From Geodermatophilus obscurus (GTDB lineage Bacteria > Actinomycetota > Actinomycetes > Mycobacteriales > Geodermatophilaceae), in contig NZ_FRDM01000020.1 of the NCBI RefSeq assembly GCF_900143215.1, positions 1-64,000 on the forward strand: a DNA stretch of 64,000 nt, in the 5' to 3' direction. The notes below the pieces were generated by a model. The model worked only from the letters and a program-made list of their open reading frames with translations, was not told the DNA's origin and did not search any database. Numbering within the stretch: the first letter of the stretch is position 1; each line of letters begins with the position of its first letter. Positions 877 through 64,000 of the stretch are shown in pieces. The translations under genes were made by a program, and so were the position numbers.

Positions 877-890
877 TGAGAGCGCCCTCA
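877..890. promoter_or_regulatory. LacI-operator-like site, copy 1
   Basis: TGAGAGCGCCCTCA is a 14-mer with one mismatch to a perfect palindrome, in the gap between the divergent genes starting at 773 (minus) and 936 (plus). The identical 14-mer recurs at 2169-2182, at the other end of the kinase-like gene. It resembles the TGGGAGCGCTCCCA operator of actinobacterial LacI-family regulators such as CebR. Regulator unknown. Confidence 0.4.
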
Positions 891-935
891 TCCGTCCCTC
901 ACGACGTCGTCACCGGCCGGGCGCAGCATGGTGCG

Positions 936-50665: not shown

Positions 50666-52939
50666 TCAGAGGTCCAGCACCAGCCGATCCGTACGGGCAC
50701 GGGACACGCAGATCATCATGCAGTCGTCGGCCTCCCTCTCCTCCGGGCTCAGGACGGAGTCCCGGTGGTCCGGCACGCCGCCGAGGACGGCGGTCTCGCA
50801 AGTGCCGCAGGTGCCCTCCGCGCACGAGGACAGGACGCCGATGCCTGCCTCCTCGACGACCGACAGGATCGACCGGTCGGGCGGGACGGTGAGGGTCAGT
50901 TCGCTCTGCGCCAGCTCGATCTCGAAGGCCTCGGTCCGCACCGGCTCGGTCTGCGGCCGGGGCGCGAACCGCTCCACGTGCAGCGCCCCGCGCGGCCAGC
51001 CGGCACAGCGCCGCTCGACCGCCGCCAGCAGCGGCTCGGGGCCGCAGCAGTAGACGAGGGTGTCCGGCCGGGGGGTGCCGAGCAGGGCGTCGAGGTCGAG
51101 CAGCCCGGTCTCGTCCTGGGGGCGGACCGAGACCCGGTCGCCGTACTGCGCGAGCTCGTCGAGGAAGGCCATCGACGCGCGGCGCCGGCCGCCGTAGACC
51201 AGCTCCCAGTCGGCGCCCGCCGCCTCCGCGGCCCGGATCATGGCCAGGACCGGGGTGATGCCGATGCCACCGGCGATGAACAGGTACCGCGGCGAGGCCA
51301 CCAGCGGGAAGTTGTTGCGCGGGCCGCGGATGCGGACGGCGTTCCCTTCCTGCAGCCGGTCGTGGACGAAGAGGGAGCCGCCGCGTCCCTCCGGGTCACG
51401 CAGGATGCCCAGCCGGTAGGCGGAGTGGTCGGCCGGGTCGCCGCACAGCGAGTACTGCCGGGTGGGCGCCCCGTCCAGGACCAGGTCGACGTGCGCGCCC
51501 GGCTCCCAGGCGGGCAGCGGCCGGCCGCCGGCCTCCCGCAGGGTCAGGGCGACGACGCCGTCGGCCGCCTCCTGCTTGGCGACCACCGTCGCCCCGGCCT
51601 CGAACTCCGAGGTGGCGAGGGTGACGGTCGTCGTCCGGTGGGAGACGGCCTCGACGTGCGGCCGGCGGCTCGAGCGGCCGAAGGTGATCGGCAGGTTCTT
51701 CCAGACGTACATGTTCGGCGAGCTCGGGTAGAAGGTCGGCGGACCGGCCAGCTCGTAGTCGCCCAGCACGGGCAGGGCCTCCTCGAGGGCGATCCGCGCC
51801 TCCAGGCGGGCCAACGGCGCGCCCAAGCACCCGTGCACGCCCTCACCGAACCCCAGGTGCCGACCGCGGGGCCGGGTGATGTCGAAGCGGGCCGGGTCGG
51901 GGAACTGGCGCTCGTCCCGGTTGGCCGCCCCCATCACCAGCACGACCCGGCCGCCCTTCGGGATGGTGACCCCGTGCAGGGTGACCTCGCGCGACGTGGT
52001 CCGGGCGGTGAGCTGCAGGGGCGTGATGAGGCGCATCGCCTCCTCGACCGCGGCCGGGATGAGCGACGGGTCGGCCTGCAGCAGCGCCCGCTGGTCGGGG
52101 TTCTCGGCGAGCAGCTCGAACAGCGTGCCGGTCAGCCCGGCGGTGGACTCCACGCCGCCGAGGAAGAGGATCATCATCAGACCGCTGACCTCGGAGGCCG
52201 GCGTCACCTGCGCGTCGACGAACGGCACCCCGCCGATGTCGGCCTGCACGAACCGGGTGACCAGGTCCTCGCGGGCGCGGCGGCGGCGGTCCTCGAGCAG
52301 GTCGATGAAGTACTGCTGGACGGCCGCGGTGGCCGCCTTCGCCACCGGGGTCAGGTGCGGGGTGCCGGGCACGCGGTCCTTGAGCTCGTGCGTCCAGTGC
52401 TCCAGCTGCTGGCGCCGCGCCTGCTCGACGGGGTCCTCGGCGTGCCGGCTCGGCAGGCCCATGAGGTGGAAGAAGACGTCGAAGGGCATCGGCCAGGCCA
52501 GCTCCTGGGCGATGTCCACCGTTGCGCGGCCCCCCGCGCCGCGGTCCCGCCAGGAGCCGACCAGGTCGCGCACCACGGCGCGGATGCCGTCCTCGAGCTC
52601 GGCGATCCGGCGCGGCACGAAGTAGGGCTGCACCACCGAGCGGACCTGGTCGTGCCGGGGGTTGTCCATGCTGCCGATCGAGCCGGGCGGCACCTGCTCC
52701 AGGCGGCTGTCGTCGATGTCCATGCCTTCGAAGCTGCGGAACGTGTCCGCGTCGAGCGCCGCCGCCCGCACGTCCTCGAAGCGGGTCAGGACCCACCAGC
52801 CCCACCGCTCGTTGTAGGCGACGGGCGCCTCGTCGCGCAGCCGGCGGTACACCTCGAACGGGTGGGACGTGTAGAAGTCCGGCCGGAACGGGTCGTAGTC
52901 CAGCGCGGTGCTGAGCGGGGTGGTGGCGGTCTCGGCCAT
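50666..52939 (-). CDS. self-sufficient cytochrome P450 fused to phthalate-dioxygenase-type reductase
   Basis: A 757-aa fusion of the CYP116B type. P450 domain (1-400): I-helix GGVESTAGLT around 261-270, E300-x-x-R303, heme ligand C371 in FGEGVHGCLGA. FMN/NAD(P)H reductase (about 440-660): RQYSLCGDP and AGGIGITPVLAM. C-terminal plant-type [2Fe-2S] ferredoxin: SSCAEGTCGTC and a late Cys. The I-helix has Glu-Ser-Thr instead of the usual Asp/Glu-Thr-Thr. It needs no separate redox partner. ATG at 52939 with GGAG; an AAGCGCTT operator lies 31 bp upstream, so repressor 2 probably controls it. Confidence 0.93.
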   Translation of the reverse strand: MAETATTPLSTALDYDPFRPDFYTSHPFEVYRRLRDEAPVAYNERWGWWVLTRFEDVRAAALDADTFRSFEGMDIDDSRLEQVPPGSIGSMDNPRHDQVRSVVQPYFVPRRIAELEDGIRAVVRDLVGSWRDRGAGGRATVDIAQELAWPMPFDVFFHLMGLPSRHAEDPVEQARRQQLEHWTHELKDRVPGTPHLTPVAKAATAAVQQYFIDLLEDRRRRAREDLVTRFVQADIGGVPFVDAQVTPASEVSGLMMILFLGGVESTAGLTGTLFELLAENPDQRALLQADPSLIPAAVEEAMRLITPLQLTARTTSREVTLHGVTIPKGGRVVLVMGAANRDERQFPDPARFDITRPRGRHLGFGEGVHGCLGAPLARLEARIALEEALPVLGDYELAGPPTFYPSSPNMYVWKNLPITFGRSSRRPHVEAVSHRTTTVTLATSEFEAGATVVAKQEAADGVVALTLREAGGRPLPAWEPGAHVDLVLDGAPTRQYSLCGDPADHSAYRLGILRDPEGRGGSLFVHDRLQEGNAVRIRGPRNNFPLVASPRYLFIAGGIGITPVLAMIRAAEAAGADWELVYGGRRRASMAFLDELAQYGDRVSVRPQDETGLLDLDALLGTPRPDTLVYCCGPEPLLAAVERRCAGWPRGALHVERFAPRPQTEPVRTEAFEIELAQSELTLTVPPDRSILSVVEEAGIGVLSSCAEGTCGTCETAVLGGVPDHRDSVLSPEEREADDCMMICVSRARTDRLVLDL

Positions 52940-52969: not shown

Positions 52970-52983
52970 TTGAAGCGCTTGAA
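52970..52983. promoter_or_regulatory. AAGCGCTT-type operator before the P450 gene
   Basis: TTGAAGCGCTTGAA shares TT-AAGCGCTT-AA with the perfect palindrome at 54173-54186. LacI-type regulators typically bind such sites. Confidence 0.6.
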
Positions 52984-54172: not shown

Positions 54173-54186
54173 TTAAAGCGCTTTAA
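54173..54186. promoter_or_regulatory. LacI operator, perfect palindrome
   Basis: TTAAAGCGCTTTAA, AT-rich flanks in a GC-rich genome, in the 128-bp divergent gap between repressor 2 and the dehydrogenase at 54268. Confidence 0.8.
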
Positions 54187-54267: not shown

Positions 54268-55467
54268 ATGTCACTCCAGCCACTGTCCGTGGCGGTCATC
54301 GGGGCCGGGATGGCCGGCCGCAGCCACGCCTCCGGCTACCGCCAGGTGAACACCGTCTTCGGTGAGGGCCTGCCACCCGTCCGGCTGGCCGCGATCGCCG
54401 ACGCCAACGAGCAGCTCGCCCGGGACGCGGCCCGCCGCTACGGGTTCGAGAAGGCGGTGTCCAGCTGGGAGGAGGTCGTCGAGGACCCCTCGATCGACGT
54501 GATCAGCATCGTCGTCGGCAACTCCCTGCACCGGCCGATCGCCGAGGCGGCCATCGCCGCCGGCAAGCACGTGCTCTGCGAGAAGCCACTGGCCGGCTCG
54601 ATGGAGGACGCGCAGGCGATGGTCGCCGCCGAGCAGTCCGCGGACGTGGTGACCGCCGTCGGCTACACCTACCGCCGCTCCCCGGCGATCGCCGCCATCC
54701 GCGACCACGTGCAGAACCGCGAGCTGGGTGAGCTGACCCTGTTCGACGGCCGCTACTGGTGCGACTACGCCTGCGACCCGCGCGGCCCGCTCACCTGGCG
54801 GTACAGGGGCGGACCCGGCAGCGGTGCCCTCGGCGACATCGGGGCCCACGTCATCGATGTCGGCCAGTTCCTCTGCGGGCCGGTCGTGTCGGTGTCCGGA
54901 GCGGTGCTGTCCACCCAGATCGCCGAGCGGCCGCTGCCGCTCGGCGCCGTGGTCGGCCACCATGCCGCCCCGGTGAGCGAGGAGATGGGCGAGGTCGAGA
55001 ACGAGGACACCGCCGTGTTCACGGCCCGGTTCGAGTCCGGACTGTCCGCGTCGTTCTCGGTGTCACGCACCGCCTTCGGCATGCCCAACGGGCTGGCCTT
55101 CGACGTGTACGGGCTGGACGGACGCGCCTCCTTCGACTGGCACCGGCCCTCGGAATACCTCGTCGACGACCGTCAGACCGAGGCCCGCACCCGCGGCGTC
55201 CGGCAGGTCATCGTCGGCCCGCAGATGCCCTACTTCGCCGGCGGCTACCCCATGGAGGCGCCGGGCGTGGGCGGCGGCAACGCCGAGATGTTCGTCTACC
55301 AGTGCCGCGCCTTCCTGGACCAGATCGTCGGCACTCCCGACCCGCTGCCGCGCAACGCCACTTTCGCGGACGCCTTCCACACCATGCAGATCGTCCAGGC
55401 CGTCGTGGAGTCCGCGCAGTCCGACGGCGCGGCCACCGAGGTCCCCACCGCCGTCCCCACCCACTGA
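54268..55467 (+). CDS. Gfo/Idh/MocA dehydrogenase
   Basis: A 399-aa dehydrogenase: SVAVIGAGMAGRSHASGYR, HVLCEKPLAGSMEDA with catalytic Lys, GSGALGDIGAHVIDVGQFLC for the substrate His. It is longer than IolG and has a large C-terminal beta-sheet insert, as in myo-inositol/glucose dehydrogenases of the YrbE/levoglucosan type. The ATG has GGAGGGG upstream. It forms an operon with the TIM-barrel gene 19 bp downstream, under the TTAAAGCGCTTTAA operator. Confidence 0.88.
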   Translation: MSLQPLSVAVIGAGMAGRSHASGYRQVNTVFGEGLPPVRLAAIADANEQLARDAARRYGFEKAVSSWEEVVEDPSIDVISIVVGNSLHRPIAEAAIAAGKHVLCEKPLAGSMEDAQAMVAAEQSADVVTAVGYTYRRSPAIAAIRDHVQNRELGELTLFDGRYWCDYACDPRGPLTWRYRGGPGSGALGDIGAHVIDVGQFLCGPVVSVSGAVLSTQIAERPLPLGAVVGHHAAPVSEEMGEVENEDTAVFTARFESGLSASFSVSRTAFGMPNGLAFDVYGLDGRASFDWHRPSEYLVDDRQTEARTRGVRQVIVGPQMPYFAGGYPMEAPGVGGGNAEMFVYQCRAFLDQIVGTPDPLPRNATFADAFHTMQIVQAVVESAQSDGAATEVPTAVPTH

Positions 55468-56604: not shown

Positions 56605-57612
56605 TCACCGGTAGAGCTCGGGCCGCCCGGGGAGCTCCACCGCCACCCGGCCCCCGGCGTGCAACGACTGCAGCGCCGCGTCCGAGACGACCTGCGCGGC
56701 GTAGCCGTCCCAGGCGCTCGACCCCTGCGGTGGCCGCGCGGCGACGACCGAGTCGACCCACTCGCGGAGCTCGACGTCGTAGGACAGCGTGAACCGCTCC
56801 CGCCAGTCGGCCGGGACGAGACCGGCGACGGTGCCCTCGCGGCGGATCCGCACCGGTGCCGGTTCGGCCAGTTCGACGGTGCCGGTCTCCCCCGACACCT
56901 CGCAGCGGATCTCGTAGCCGTAGTGCACGTTGACCGACACCTCGAGGTCGACGAGGACGCCGTCCGCCATCTCGAAGAGCACGAGCAGCGGGTCCTGCAG
57001 TTCGCCGCCGCGGCTGCTCCTGCGGGGCGTGAACACCTGGGCGGCGACGATCTCCTGGCCGAACAGCCAGCGCAGCTCGTCGATCTCGTGGATCGCGGTG
57101 TCGGCGATGGACATGTCGCGGGTGTAGTGCGCGGGCACCGAGGCGTTGCGGTGGGCGCAGTGCACGAGCAGCGGGGCGCCGATGACCCCGTCGTCCACTG
57201 CCTGCCTGAGGGCCCGGTGCGCGGGGTCGAAGCGCCGGTTGAAGCCGACCTGCACCAGCCGCCGGCCGGCGGCGACCTCGGCGTCGACGACCCGCCGGCA
57301 GGCCTCCTGCGTCGTGGCCAGCGGCTTCTCGCAGAACACCGGCTTGCCGGCGGCGATGCACGCCAGCACGTACGGCTCGTGCGTCGGCCCCCACGAGGTG
57401 ACGACGACGGCGTCGACCGCATCCGATGCGATGACGTCCTCGCCGCTGGGCAGCGCCTTGGCGGCGGGGAGCTGCGCAGCCACGGTCGCAGCGCGTCCGG
57501 CGTCCGCGTCGGCCACCGCGACCACCCGGCTGCCCCCGGGACCGCCGTCCAGCCGGCGGATGTGCTCCTGGCCGATCATGCCGACCCCGATGACCCCGAC
57601 GTCCAGCGCCAC
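56605..57612 (-). CDS. inositol 2-dehydrogenase-like protein (Gfo/Idh/MocA)
   Basis: A 335-aa dehydrogenase: VGVIGVGMIGQEHIRRL, VFCEKPLATTQEA, QVGFNRRFDPAHRAL, HCAHRNASVPAHYT and IHEIDELRWL. The HCAHRNA segment is shared with the iolG at 43930, so this is a close paralogue. The GTG at 57612 has GAGGAGGGG upstream. A matched promoter (TTGACC-18-CAGCCT) and an 18-bp operator lie upstream at 57661-57718, shared in design with the genes at 58827 and 59767. Confidence 0.9.
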   Translation of the reverse strand: MALDVGVIGVGMIGQEHIRRLDGGPGGSRVVAVADADAGRAATVAAQLPAAKALPSGEDVIASDAVDAVVVTSWGPTHEPYVLACIAAGKPVFCEKPLATTQEACRRVVDAEVAAGRRLVQVGFNRRFDPAHRALRQAVDDGVIGAPLLVHCAHRNASVPAHYTRDMSIADTAIHEIDELRWLFGQEIVAAQVFTPRRSSRGGELQDPLLVLFEMADGVLVDLEVSVNVHYGYEIRCEVSGETGTVELAEPAPVRIRREGTVAGLVPADWRERFTLSYDVELREWVDSVVAARPPQGSSAWDGYAAQVVSDAALQSLHAGGRVAVELPGRPELYR

Positions 57613-57660: not shown

Positions 57661-57718
57661 AGGCTGTGCGCCGGACCACGGCCAGGTCAACGGCACAGGT
57701 CCGTCAAGAACCCCTCAA
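57661..57718 (-). promoter_or_regulatory. operator plus promoter A
   Basis: Minus strand: operator TTGAGGGGTTCTTGACGG (57718-57701), ten bases, -35 TTGACC (57690-57685), 18-bp spacer, -10 CAGCCT (57666-57661). The same design recurs at 58773 and 59674. Confidence 0.7.
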
Positions 57719-57722
57719 CGGG

Positions 57723-58763
57723 TCACCGCGCTGACAGGAGCTCTGCCGGGATGTTGTGCGGCGTCACCACCTGGACGCCGGAGTGCCAGGACCGCGGGGT
57801 GCCGGGCAGCGCGCCGTGGGCCTGCATCACGACGTGGCAGGCGCGGCGCAGGTCGAGTGCGAGGTCGTGGTGCAGCACCGCGGACAGCCGGCCCTCCCGC
57901 AGCAGGGCGAGGTTCTCGGCGTCCAGGTCGTGGGCGACGAACGCGCGGCAGCTGCGCCCGGCATCGGCGAAGGCCGCGACGGTCGCGGCGTTGCCGCCGG
58001 CGGCGTACATCGAGTACACGGCGGCGATGTCCGGGTCGGCGGCGATCGCGTCGCGGACGAGTCCGCGCAGCACGTCGTCGTCCCCGGTCACGTCCACCAG
58101 GTCGACCTGCCGCCGACCCGGACGCAGCGCGCGGGCGGTGGCCCGGAAGCCCATCTCCCGGTCGTCCTCGCCACGGAAGGACCCGGTGCCCCGGGTGACG
58201 AGGACTGCGGCGTCGTCGGGCAGCCACTGGTCGAGCAGGTAGGCGGCGGTCGCGCCGGCCGCCCGGTTGTCCAGGCCGACGTAGGCGACCCGGCGGCTGG
58301 TCGGCAGGTCCGTCACCAGCGTGGTGACGGGGATCCCGGCCTCGGCCAGCCGCTCGACCGCCGCGACGACCAGCGGGTGGTCTGGGGCCTTGAGGACGAC
58401 GCCCTGCGACCCGCGCCGGGCGATCCCGTCGAGCGTGGCCGCCAGCCCGGTCACCGGTGGGGCCTCGGCGAGGTGGAACCGGGCCCGGAACGTCGCCGGG
58501 CGGACCACCGGCAGCTGGGACTCCAGGGCCGCCCGCACCGCGGCGGAGAACCGGGCCGGCGCGTCGACGACCAGGTCGAGGAAGAACGTCCGCCCGGTCA
58601 GCCGCACCTGCGAGCGCTGCCGGTGCAGGTCGGCGATGGCGCGGTGCACCTCCTGCACCGTGCTCGCGCGGACCCCGCCCCGGGCGTTGAGGACGCGGTC
58701 GACCGTCGCCTCGGACAGGCCGGCCTGGCGGGCGATCTCGCGGATGGGGTAGGGGTGCGGCAC
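57723..58763 (-). CDS. LacI-family regulator 3 (RbsB-like ligand domain)
   Basis: A 346-aa regulator: helix-turn-helix YPIREIARQAGLSEATVDRV, then a ribose-binding-protein-like domain (VYSMYAAGGNAATVAAFADA; AFVAHDLDAENLALLREGRL). The ligand domain resembles the binding proteins of sugar/inositol importers more than repressors 1 and 2 do. GTG at 58763; its 5' region overlaps the operator at 58773-58790, so it is probably autoregulated. It lies at the centre of a regulon with three similar sites. Confidence 0.9.
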   Translation of the reverse strand: MPHPYPIREIARQAGLSEATVDRVLNARGGVRASTVQEVHRAIADLHRQRSQVRLTGRTFFLDLVVDAPARFSAAVRAALESQLPVVRPATFRARFHLAEAPPVTGLAATLDGIARRGSQGVVLKAPDHPLVVAAVERLAEAGIPVTTLVTDLPTSRRVAYVGLDNRAAGATAAYLLDQWLPDDAAVLVTRGTGSFRGEDDREMGFRATARALRPGRRQVDLVDVTGDDDVLRGLVRDAIAADPDIAAVYSMYAAGGNAATVAAFADAGRSCRAFVAHDLDAENLALLREGRLSAVLHHDLALDLRRACHVVMQAHGALPGTPRSWHSGVQVVTPHNIPAELLSAR

Positions 58764-58772
58764 GGCACCAGT

Positions 58773-58820
58773 TTGAGGGGTCTCTGAGGGTTGACCGCGT
58801 GCCCGCGGGCTCACCAGGCT
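58773..58820 (+). promoter_or_regulatory. operator plus promoter B
   Basis: Operator TTGAGGGGTCTCTGAGGG (58773-58790) abuts -35 TTGACC (58791-58796), an 18-bp spacer and -10 CAGGCT (58815-58820). The expected transcription start coincides with the ATG at 58827, so the message is probably leaderless. Confidence 0.7.
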
Positions 58821-58826
58821 GACGGG

Positions 58827-59663
58827 ATGACCACGGTCCCCTCCGTCTCCCTGGACGACGGCGTCACGATCCCCCAGCTCGGCCTGGGCACCGCCCGGCT
58901 CCCCGACGAGGAGACGCGGCGGATCGTCCGCGAGGCACTCGAGGTCGGCTACCGGTTCGTCGACACCGCGGCCAGCTACGAGAACGAGCGCGGCGTCGGC
59001 CAGGGCATCGCCGACTCCGGACTGCCGCGCGAGGAGGTCTTCGTCTCCACCAAGCTGCGCGGCCGTGACCAGGGGTACGAGACGGCCAAGGCCGCGCTGC
59101 GGGCCAGCCTGGACCGCCTGGGCACCGACCACGTGGACCTCTACCTGATCCACTGGCCGCTCCCCCGGCTCGACCGCTACGTCGAATCGTGGCGGGCGAT
59201 GGAGGAGCTCCTCGACGAGGGACTCACCCGCGCCATCGGCGTCTCCAACTTCCTGCCCGCGCACCTCGACCGGCTCGCCGCCGCCTCGTCGACGGTGCCG
59301 GCGGTCAACCAGATCGAGTGCCACCCCCGCGCCCCCCAGCTCGAGCAGCGGGCCGACGACGCCCGCCGCGGCATCGTCACCGAGTCGTGGTCGCCGCTGG
59401 CCAACGGCGGGGAACTGCTGCGGCAACCGGTGCTCACGGAAATCGGGGCGCGCCACGGCCGGACACCCGCGCAGGTGGTGCTGCGCTGGCACGTGCAGCA
59501 GGGCCTGGTGACCTTCCCCAAGGCGTCGTCCCGCAGCCGGCTGGTCGAGAACCTCGACGTCTTCGGCTTCGAGCTCGACGGCGAGGACATGGCCGGCATC
59601 GCCACGCTGGCCGACGGCACCCGCGTCAACGGCCAGCACCCGGACGTCTGGGAGGAGTTCTGA
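58827..59663 (+). CDS. aldo-keto reductase
   Basis: A 278-aa AKR barrel: QLGLGTARLPDEETRRIV, VDTAASYENE (catalytic Asp and Tyr), VSTKLRG (Lys), YLIHWPLP (His), and the NADPH-binding FPKASSRSRLVENL. AKR5/AKR3-like; it reduces aldehydes or ketoses, here perhaps an inosose or sugar ketone. The ATG at 58827 is the predicted transcription start. Its 3' end lies upstream of operator C. Confidence 0.92.
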   Translation: MTTVPSVSLDDGVTIPQLGLGTARLPDEETRRIVREALEVGYRFVDTAASYENERGVGQGIADSGLPREEVFVSTKLRGRDQGYETAKAALRASLDRLGTDHVDLYLIHWPLPRLDRYVESWRAMEELLDEGLTRAIGVSNFLPAHLDRLAAASSTVPAVNQIECHPRAPQLEQRADDARRGIVTESWSPLANGGELLRQPVLTEIGARHGRTPAQVVLRWHVQQGLVTFPKASSRSRLVENLDVFGFELDGEDMAGIATLADGTRVNGQHPDVWEEF

Positions 59664-59673
59664 GCCCCACCCG

Positions 59674-59731
59674 ATGACGGGTTCTTGAGGGATCGGCGGC
59701 CTTGTGGACGCGGTATCCCGATCGCCAGGCT
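59674..59731 (+). promoter_or_regulatory. operator plus promoter C
   Basis: Operator ATGACGGGTTCTTGAGGG (59674-59691), ten bases, -35 TTGTGG (59702-59707), 18-bp spacer, -10 CAGGCT (59726-59731). Confidence 0.65.
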
Positions 59732-59766: not shown

Positions 59767-60966
59767 ATGACCGCACCCCTCGCGGCCCGGACCGCTCCCG
59801 GCTGGTTCACCGCGGACGACTGCCGTCTGGAGGACTTCCGCGCGCTCGTCGAGACGACCACCGACCTGGCCGAGTACCCCTCCGCCGACGAGGTGCGCGA
59901 GAACGTCCTCGTCTACGGCCCACGGCTGCGCGACTCCGTCGCCAGCCCCGAGGGGCGTCGGGCGGTGCAGGCCGAGCTGGCCCGTGCGCTCGCCGACGGC
60001 CCGGGGATCGTCGTGTTCGCCGGCGCCTTCCCCGACACCGCGGTCGTCGACCGGGCGACGGCGGTGTGCCAGGCGATGATCGACGAGCAGAAGGCGGCCG
60101 GCGTCGTCGGCGGCGACCACTTCGCCAAGCCGGGCGCCAACGACCGCATCTGGGGCGCGCTGGACAAGTTCGCCGTCCGGGACCCGGAGGCCTTCGCCGC
60201 CTACTACGGCAACGACGTCATCGCGCTGGTCTCCGAGGCGTGGCTCGGCCGCGGCTACCAGCTCACCAGCCAGGTCAACGTGGTGAACCCCGGAGGGCAG
60301 GCCCAGGTCGCCCACCGCGACTACCACCTGGGCTTCATGTCCGAGGAGCAGGCCCTGGCCTACCCGGCGCACGTGCACCGGCTCTCCCCGGTGATGACGC
60401 TGCAGGGCGCGGTGGCGCACTGCGACATGCCGGTGGAGACCGGGCCGACGATGTACCTGCCGCACTCGCAGAAGTACCCCCCCGGTTACGTCGCCTTCCA
60501 CCGGCCGGAGTTCACCGCCTACTTCGACCAGCACTTCGTCCAGTTGCCGCTGCGCACGGGTGACGCCGCCTTCTTCAACCCGGCGCTCTTCCACGGGGCG
60601 GGCACCAACCGCTCGGCCGCCGTGCGCCGCATGGCCAATCTGCTGCAGGTCTCCTCCGCCTTCGGCCGGGCCATGGAGACCGTCGACCGGACGGCGATGG
60701 TCCGGGCGCTCTACCCGGTGCTGCTGGCGCAACGGGCCGCCGGCGCCGACGAGCGCACGCTGCGCAACGTGTTCGCCGCCTCGGCGGAGGGCTACGCCTT
60801 CCCGACCGACCTCGACCGTGACCAGCCGATCGGCGGCCTGGCGCCGGAGACCCAGGCCGAGCTGGTGTGGCGCGCCCTGCAGGAGGACTGGTCTCCCGAA
60901 GACCTCCACCGGGAGCTGGCCGAGCAGGCCGGGCGCCGCACCAGTGGGGCGCGCCGGGACAGCTGA
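59767..60966 (+). CDS. phytanoyl-CoA dioxygenase family protein
   Basis: A 399-aa Fe(II)/2-oxoglutarate oxygenase of the PhyH family. The facial triad is visible: AHRDYHLGF (His and Asp) and FHGAGTNRSAAVR (distal His and the 2-oxoglutarate-binding Arg). AGGAAGG precedes the ATG. Controlled by promoter C. PhyH-like enzymes sometimes accompany inositol clusters; hydroxylation or demethylation of a cyclitol derivative is possible but unproven. Confidence 0.87.
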   Translation: MTAPLAARTAPGWFTADDCRLEDFRALVETTTDLAEYPSADEVRENVLVYGPRLRDSVASPEGRRAVQAELARALADGPGIVVFAGAFPDTAVVDRATAVCQAMIDEQKAAGVVGGDHFAKPGANDRIWGALDKFAVRDPEAFAAYYGNDVIALVSEAWLGRGYQLTSQVNVVNPGGQAQVAHRDYHLGFMSEEQALAYPAHVHRLSPVMTLQGAVAHCDMPVETGPTMYLPHSQKYPPGYVAFHRPEFTAYFDQHFVQLPLRTGDAAFFNPALFHGAGTNRSAAVRRMANLLQVSSAFGRAMETVDRTAMVRALYPVLLAQRAAGADERTLRNVFAASAEGYAFPTDLDRDQPIGGLAPETQAELVWRALQEDWSPEDLHRELAEQAGRRTSGARRDS

Positions 60967-63083: not shown

Positions 63084-64000
63084 CTAGCGGGTGTTGTTCT
63101 CCGTGAACGGCAGGATCGCGTCGATGTTGCTCGAGTCGACGATCGACGGGCCCGTCAGGACCGGACCACCACCTCCGATGTCGTTCCCGTTGGTGATGTT
63201 GAGCCACAGCGAGGTCACGGCCATGTAGCCCTGCACGAAGGGCTGCTGGTCGACCGAGAACGCGATGCCGCCGCTCTGGATCTGCTGGGCCACGTCCTGG
63301 TTCAGGTCGAAGGTGGCGATGGCGGCCTGGCTGCCGACGTCGTCCTTGGACTGCTGTGATGCCAGCGCGATGTCCGCACCCAGCGCCACGATCGCGGTGA
63401 CCGACGGGTCCTGCTGCAGCTTGGCCCCGATCGTCTGCTGGACCGACGGGAGGTCGCGCCCGTTGACGTAGAGGATCTCGGTGTCGGGGTAGGTCTTGGC
63501 CACGCCGGCGCAGCGGGTCTCCAGCTGCACCTGGCCCTGCTCCTGGATGACGCAGACGGTCTTCCCGGTCGACCCGGTCTCGGCGAGCTGCGTGCCGACG
63601 GCCTGCCCGGCGAGGTCCTCGTTCGAACCGAAGTACATGGAGACGCCGAAGTCGCGGTACGCATCCCCACCGGCGTTGAACGCCACGACCGGGATGCCGG
63701 CGTCGACCGCGTCCTGCGCGGCCGGCCCGATGGCGTCGGGCGTGGGCAGGGTGACCGCCAGGCCGTCGACCCCACTGTCGATGGCGTTCTGCACGAGCGT
63801 GGCCTGCCGGCCGGCGTCCGGGTCCGCGGAGTAGTTCAGCGTGATGTTGTGGTTGGCGGCCGCGGCCTCGGCCCCGTTGCGGATCTTGTCCCAGAACGTG
63901 TCACCCGGCGCCTCGTGGGTGACCATCGCGATGGTGTACTCCTCGCCGGCGGCGGCGGCGCCGCCGTCGTCCTGCGCACCGCCCTGGCTGCTGCACCCGG
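63084..64000 (-). CDS. sugar/inositol ABC substrate-binding lipoprotein, 5' end beyond the window
   Basis: About 305 residues are visible; the start lies beyond 64000. The visible N-terminus reads GCSSQGGAQDDGGAAAAGEE, where the Cys is the likely lipidated residue. The RbsB-like fold follows: YTIAMVTHEAPGDTFWDKIR, VDGLAVTLPTPDAIGPAA, IPVVAFNAGGDAYRDFGVSM, AIVALGADIALASQQ, ATFDLNQDVAQQIQSGG. First gene of the import operon in view. Its ligand domain is related to that of LacI regulator 3, consistent with a shared ligand. Confidence 0.93.
   Translation of the reverse strand, partial: GCSSQGGAQDDGGAAAAGEEYTIAMVTHEAPGDTFWDKIRNGAEAAAANHNITLNYSADPDAGRQATLVQNAIDSGVDGLAVTLPTPDAIGPAAQDAVDAGIPVVAFNAGGDAYRDFGVSMYFGSNEDLAGQAVGTQLAETGSTGKTVCVIQEQGQVQLETRCAGVAKTYPDTEILYVNGRDLPSVQQTIGAKLQQDPSVTAIVALGADIALASQQSKDDVGSQAAIATFDLNQDVAQQIQSGGIAFSVDQQPFVQGYMAVTSLWLNITNGNDIGGGGPVLTGPSIVDSSNIDAILPFTENNTR

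Follow-up and report, generated by a model that had tools for sequence, protein, structure and literature searches.

The window analysed here, a stretch of 64,000 nucleotides, comprises the first part of a contig of 72,430 bases in the 5.24-Mb genome of Geodermatophilus obscurus. Near its end lies the gene for a LacI-type regulator (regulator 3; 57723..58763, minus strand), which has a LacI-type helix-turn-helix (HTH) and a Peripla_BP_4 sensor domain, and is without the YxPxxxAxxL hinge motif. It is surrounded by genes for an IolG-like Gfo/Idh/MocA dehydrogenase with a GTG start (56605..57612, minus strand), an aldo/keto reductase (AKR; 58827..59663, plus strand; PF00248, 5.6e-49) and a PhyH-family dioxygenase (59767..60966, plus strand; PF05721, 4.2e-29). 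Each of these three genes is preceded by an 18-base direct repeat and a promoter-like string, and comparison across genomes indicates that the repeats form a real tandem operator system, conserved along with a LacI-type regulator that has no hinge. Because the dehydrogenase (NF052679, 394 bits, under its cut-off of 540) and the AKR both fall short of the NCBIfam cut-offs, no specific substrate is named; the PhyH, short-chain dehydrogenase (SDR), IolG-like, IolE-like and ABC transporter genes point to a sugar or a cyclitol as the class of ligand and substrate.

Operators and promoters in the window

Operator 1 (57701..57718, minus strand), upstream of the dehydrogenase gene, reads TTGAGGG-N4-TTGACGG, with half-sites at 57712-57718 and 57701-57707. 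Its promoter consists of a -35 (TTGACC, 57685..57690, minus strand) 10 bp from the operator and, after 18 bp, a -10 (CAGCCT, 57661..57666, minus strand); orthologs keep a TTG at the equal offset and CAGCCT or a CAACCT-like string as the -10. Operator 2 (58773..58790, plus strand; TTGAGGG-N4-CTGAGGG) is placed between the divergent regulator 3 and AKR genes. It directly abuts (0 bp) the -35 of the AKR promoter (TTGACC, 58791..58796, plus strand), which is again followed at 18 bp by the -10 (CAGGCT, 58815..58820, plus strand), only 6 nt ahead of the AKR ATG, and a leaderless mRNA is predicted. On the opposite strand, operator 2 overlaps the predicted -10 of the regulator 3 gene itself (CAAACT, 58770..58775, minus strand), 6 nt ahead of its GTG. 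Operator 3 (59674..59691, plus strand; ATGACGG-N4-TTGAGGG) lies upstream of the PhyH gene, 10 bp from a -35 (TTGTGG, 59702..59707, plus strand) and, with the same spacer of 18 bp, a -10 (CAGGCT, 59726..59731, plus strand), the core of which keeps a nearly constant offset across phyla.

In all three 18-mers the seven-base half-sites lie on one strand and start 11 bp apart, as had been proposed from the letters of the window alone (the sequence-only reading). The coordinates also bear out the -35 and -10 strings of that reading, their exact 18-bp spacer at all three promoters, and its operator-promoter gaps of 10, 0 and 10 bp. Its half-site TTGAGGG holds as a direct repeat and not as a consensus: the conserved core is TGASGG in the family set (112 genomes of Geodermatophilaceae) and TGAKGG in a wider set, and the base preceding it is not conserved. 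Allowing up to 3 mismatches, the operator 1 18-mer matches the window twice, whereas shuffles predict 0.04 matches. The joint pattern of the three 18-mers, at the same tolerance, has 8 matches in the organism's own genome, where operators 1 and 3 rank best (0 and 1 mismatch) and operator 2 is among six with 3. Exact matches to TGABGG-N5-TGABGG number 9 in this genome, operators 1-3 included, against 2 for the reversed control. A fourth such match in the window (885-901, minus strand) has no matching promoter and is probably due to chance. A simple scan for sigma-70 consensus promoters and terminators returned nothing at these sites. Judged against the consensus, then, these promoters are weak; the support for their strings comes from conservation in orthologs. 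The suggestion that the ABC operon beyond position 64000 might have the same site did not hold up: none was found there, and over positions 60001-72430 of the contig, at 0-1 mismatch, only one weak match appeared (72011), distant from that operon, which was rejected as a fourth target.

Conservation of the repeat with its regulator

An ortholog of regulator 3 is present in 14 of the 112 family genomes, and the upstream regions of 13 dehydrogenase, 9 AKR and 13 PhyH genes were compared. The tandem repeat stands ahead of every one of them, with half-site mismatches only in loci L038 and L030. For operator 1, both TGABGG half-sites are found in 12 of the 13 dehydrogenase orthologs, the second half-site of L038 being TAAGGG (this row and that of L032 were misaligned by the script, and their register was read by eye); in the AKR upstream region of L030, one half-site is CGAGGG. 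Operator 2 is found upstream of the regulator gene in all 14 family loci with at most one half-site mismatch. The repeat ahead of PhyH is kept in 13/13 loci, four of which have no AKR gene, and in these it is the site between regulator and PhyH. Most family rows have the -35 TTG 10 bp past the operator (it is missing from the PhyH row of L032). Among the AKR orthologs this gap is 10 bp in six and 0 bp in three of nine, and since only these three abut, the 0-bp gap of the window reflects the loss of 10 bp within a small clade. The start context [CG]AGGCT-N6-ATG/GTG occurs in 9/9 AKR orthologs, in keeping with the predicted leaderless message, and CARACT-N6-7-GTG/ATG precedes the regulator gene in 14/14 loci, this -10 overlying operator 2.

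Across genomes, the motif follows the regulator. The exact family pattern, TGASGGNTTCTTGASGG, occurs in 8 of the 112 genomes, all 8 among the 14 carriers of the regulator (Fisher 6e-9), and all 10 of its sites belong to the regulator 3 locus. In an order set of 397 genomes, the exact wider pattern, TGAKGGNTTYTTGAKGG, is found in 19, all of them among 42 carriers (Fisher 4e-21, not corrected for phylogeny), and the reversed control in none. Of the 20 sites of the wider pattern, 19 have the regulator gene at a distance of 11-185 bp. The exception (L094, G548:C1:1401860) is in a carrier genome, 2.6 Mb from the regulator and ahead of an SDR-GFO operon, the products of which are 69% (SDR) and 65% (GFO) identical to those encoded behind PhyH in the Streptomyces locus L098; its promoter, TTGACG-N17-AAGGCT, sits at the same offset from the operator. 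The three-unit regulon around regulator 3, as first proposed, is supported both by this tracking across genomes and by the retention of the sites before the same three genes.

Scanning with an alignment of 23 orthologs, and selecting by the regulator protein alone, yielded 80 named loci that span Streptomyces, Pseudonocardia, Rhodococcus, Mycolicibacterium, Gordonia, Tsukamurella, Arthrobacter, Nocardioides, and rhizobial and burkholderial genomes. A direct TGABGG pair with spacing 11 is present upstream of the regulator gene in 61 of the 80. Of the other direct spacings from 7 to 25, only 22 (ten loci) and 20 (one locus) occur at all, and inverted or everted pairs are seen in at most one locus at any one spacing. 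The spacing of 11 gave 0 in both the shuffle and the coding-region controls, and persists in 9 of 14 loci after thinning to <65% protein identity. Chance origin of the repeats is rejected on the basis of the shuffles and of the co-occurrence with the regulator. The half-sites also vary with the recognition helix: where its residue 18 is L or I, they are TGAGGT/TGAGGT in 4 of 5 loci. Taken together, the comparisons make it very probable that the three 18-mers of the window are operators bound by regulator 3. Among the named loci, no gene accompanies the regulator more constantly than PhyH, with a homolog in 68 of 80, mostly 77-330 bp upstream of the regulator gene and divergent from it. One locus (L029:14899, genome G056) carries an additional exact degenerate site, CTGACGGCCTCTTGACGG, adjoining the palindrome TTTGAAGCGCTTCAAA.

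A LacI-type protein without the hinge motif

Canonical operators of the LacI/GalR family are palindromic and mostly centred on CG (1251 of 1303 are even palindromes; PMC4052901), the linker carries the hinge motif YxPxxxAxxL (PMC3877293), and exceptions to the contact between hinge helix and central CG are described as rare in the accessible part of PMC2978694. Regulator 3 resembles this family in its PF00356 HTH (36.2 bits, cut-off 27, covering only profile positions 2-41 of 46), its sugar-type sensor, its local regulon and its likely autoregulation, but it has neither a palindromic operator, the hinge motif nor a Peripla_BP_3/1 core. The core domain matches Peripla_BP_4 only (PF13407, 1.1e-24), and neither Peripla_BP_3 nor Peripla_BP_1. 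Its linker, LHRQRSQVRLTGR, does not contain the hinge motif, and nothing like GYxPNxxARxL turns up in any of the 23 aligned orthologs, a linker like DRQRxQLRLxGR standing in its place. The AlphaFold2 model of the single chain (mean predicted local distance difference test score, pLDDT, 90.6) has one helix, 33-55, that runs to the first core strand, and the best structural matches in the PDB are the sugar-binding proteins of transporters.

The window contains a comparison within one cluster, where a probably canonical palindromic system and the tandem one stand side by side. In regulators 1 and 2 the linkers are hinge-like and the cores are of the Peripla_BP_3 type (with matches to Peripla_BP_3 and _1), and two CG-centred palindromes lie near the genes of their cluster: TTGAAGCGCTTGAA (52970-52983), just upstream of a P450 fusion gene, and TTAAAGCGCTTTAA (54173-54186), between regulator 2 and a GFO gene. 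By chance 0.22 would be expected, and 2 of 100 shuffles reach two. These are likely to be canonical operators of regulators 1 and 2. The P450 fusion (50666-52939, minus strand) is a protein of 757 amino acids that joins cytochrome P450 to a 2Fe-2S (Fer2) reductase part; the GFO-family protein (54268-55467, plus strand) is nearest to levoglucosan dehydrogenase (NF052479, 285 bits, under the cut-off of 650).

That direct repeats are unusual for a LacI protein, as the sequence-only reading had it, is correct as to their directness, and they are not without precedent. They are already known in this family because CytR of Enterobacteriales and Vibrionales uses them at some of its operators, conserved among orthologs (PMC3454398, as far as accessible). 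However, the repeats of CytR are octamers with a 1-bp spacer (a period of about 9 bp, against 11 bp here), most CytR sites are inverted, and CytR works with CRP, sites for which flank its repeats; the comparison with regulator 3 is one of operator layout. A search of literature titles and abstracts, from which the subscription literature was mostly absent, returned no LacI regulator beside a PhyH gene and no tandem operators of this clade.

A second precedent concerns function. FixV (Msi360) of Mesorhizobium loti R7A is a LacI/GalR protein that activates nifA2, with 307.5 Miller units from nifA2::lacZ in the presence of fixV and 15.1 in its absence; its orthologs are about 60-76% identical, and its homologs are linked to genes for inositol derivatives (PMC3538637, accessible part). 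Like regulator 3, FixV combines a LacI-type HTH with Peripla_BP_4 and a non-canonical linker. The protein of locus L192 (M. loti CJ3sym), which we take to be FixV from the NifA-like reading frame that follows it, is about 33% identical to regulator 3 over residues 7-295. The two are not orthologs: one Ensifer genome (G815) carries an ortholog of each. No TGAKGG tandem was found at L192.

Promoter geometry and direction of control

To describe the geometry, 33 operator-downstream regions less than 65% identical were taken from 72 loci with at most one mismatch. In 30 of these 33 divergent promoters a -10 core, NANNNT, stands at offset 49-51 from the first half-site, compared with a mean of 2.1 and a maximum of 5 for other windows of three offsets. 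TTG is found at offset 27 in 11 regions and at offset 28 in 10. The information content of 31 representatives outlines TGA-GG, a spacer with a run of T, a second TGA-GG and, at +22, a less marked TG-GG ahead of the -35; this third, degenerate unit has T22 in 22/31, G23 in 25/31 and G26 in 21/31, with the -35 at 27-29. Rhizobial copies have a TATAGT -10 in place and CTATAA or CTATAT at the -35 position, with no TTGACA-like -35, as would be expected if an activator substitutes for that element. The regulator looks activator-like because its operator lies upstream of a weak promoter and keeps a constant distance to the -10. The layout recalls AraC and the PhoB/OmpR activators, where direct-repeat half-sites are set in helical phase by the -35 and often substitute for it; these proteins are unrelated to regulator 3, and the likeness is one of layout only. 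From the promoter geometry and the precedent of FixV, activation is the more probable mode of control.

Regulator 3 is probably, then, an activating variant of the LacI family with tandem binding. A straight helix, in place of the hinge helix, would join its HTH to a sugar-binding domain like those of ABC transporters. The two TGASGG half-sites, 11 bp apart on one face of the DNA, would be read by two protomers: either a dimer whose HTHs are held on flexible linkers, or a pair arranged head to tail. A weaker third half-site at +22 would extend into the -35. Its operator is centred at about -55 relative to the predicted start and keeps its distance to the weak -10; from there, regulator 3 with a sugar or cyclitol bound would most likely recruit RNA polymerase to all three promoters (dehydrogenase, AKR, PhyH). 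At operator 2 the bound protein would cover the -10 of its own gene and so repress it. Autorepression, ligand class and stoichiometry are all inferred from sequence. For the proposal as a whole (tandem reading, probable activation of the three promoters, repression of its own gene), we estimate a probability of about 0.6.

The strongest competitor, though a rather unlikely one, is that regulator 3 acts on the same operators as a classical, ligand-released repressor, the third contact at the -35 blocking sigma region 4 until a sugar inducer releases the protein. Most members of the LacI family repress (PMC3538637, accessible part), the third degenerate unit adjoins the -35, and operator 2 abuts the -35 of AKR. 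A steric repressor, however, could act at varying distances from the -10, whereas this distance is held within 1 bp in 30 of 33 promoters, and the rhizobial TATAGT promoters without a TTGACA-like -35 suit an activator. It is improbable that the sites are bound by some other protein, such as a response regulator of the OmpR/PhoB type, to which regulator 3 is a mere neighbour. The boxes of such proteins are 11-bp direct repeats, and the 7+4 bp tandem with its T-rich spacer resembles Pho boxes. Against this, the exact motif is found in 0/355 order genomes without the regulator, and the family pattern in 0/98 such family genomes; moreover, the motif tracks the regulator gene into Proteobacteria, with half-sites that change along with the recognition helix. 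Very improbable is the view that there is no operator, and that the repeated TTGA/TTGAC strings arose by chance in a GC-rich genome or serve as spare or extended -35 elements: TTGAGG and TTGACG do resemble -35 hexamers and the consensus promoters are weak, but the exact 11-bp spacing is kept over phyla and never arises in shuffles, and the element properly spaced from the -10 core is the TTG at offset 27-28, and not either half-site. A hidden inverted repeat in or around the 18-mers, suggested by an imperfect dyad in operator 1 (CCGT...ACGG, with G-T pairs allowed), is likewise very improbable as the true LacI operator: it is rejected by the spectrum of TGABGG spacings and orientations, and the dyad is not common to operators 2 and 3.

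Besides the general habit of repression in this family and the position of the third repeat, which could block sigma, several observations weigh against the proposal. The linker block of the AlphaFold2 model has a pLDDT of about 64. The 19 named loci outside the 61 show one mismatch in 11 cases, two in 6 and three in 2, and the strict patterns are missing from 6 of 14 (family) and 23 of 42 (order) regulator-bearing genomes. The trend between recognition helix and half-site may stem in part from shared descent. FixV is a distant relative, the nifA2 site of which is not described in the accessible part of PMC3538637, and the fixV-like loci (L199-L221) show arrays of another kind, TGATR/YATCA at a 10-bp period in mixed orientation. 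These arrays are direct in 7 of 23 loci and of the form TGATR-N5-YATCA in 7 of 23 (shuffle maximum 1); in 5 of the 23 the DNA-binding domain was not detected at first and was placed by a looser rule. As a related system they are a lead only.

The chances are evenly balanced that regulator 3 and its orthologs, to which FixV would be distantly related, are a class of their own that spans phyla: activators that lack the hinge helix, have an HTH fused to a transporter-type sugar-binding domain, bind tandem half-sites in helical phase and work in an AraC- or PhoB-like way. Were this so, the rule that equates LacI with hinge helix, palindrome and repressor would fail for a whole clade, with loss of the hinge helix tied to loss of operator symmetry. 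FixV, the nifA2 activator without a described site in the accessible text of PMC3538637, would gain a concrete model, and the array behind its control of nitrogen fixation would be of a related kind. The regulon reconstruction of PMC4052901, as far as its accessible part goes, assigned palindromes to all the LacI regulators it considered; since palindromes were what its motif search sought, it would overlook a clade whose operators are tandem. Regulons of this clade can be found instead with the pattern TGABGG-N5-TGABGG plus a -10 core at 49-51, as the distant SDR-GFO site shows.

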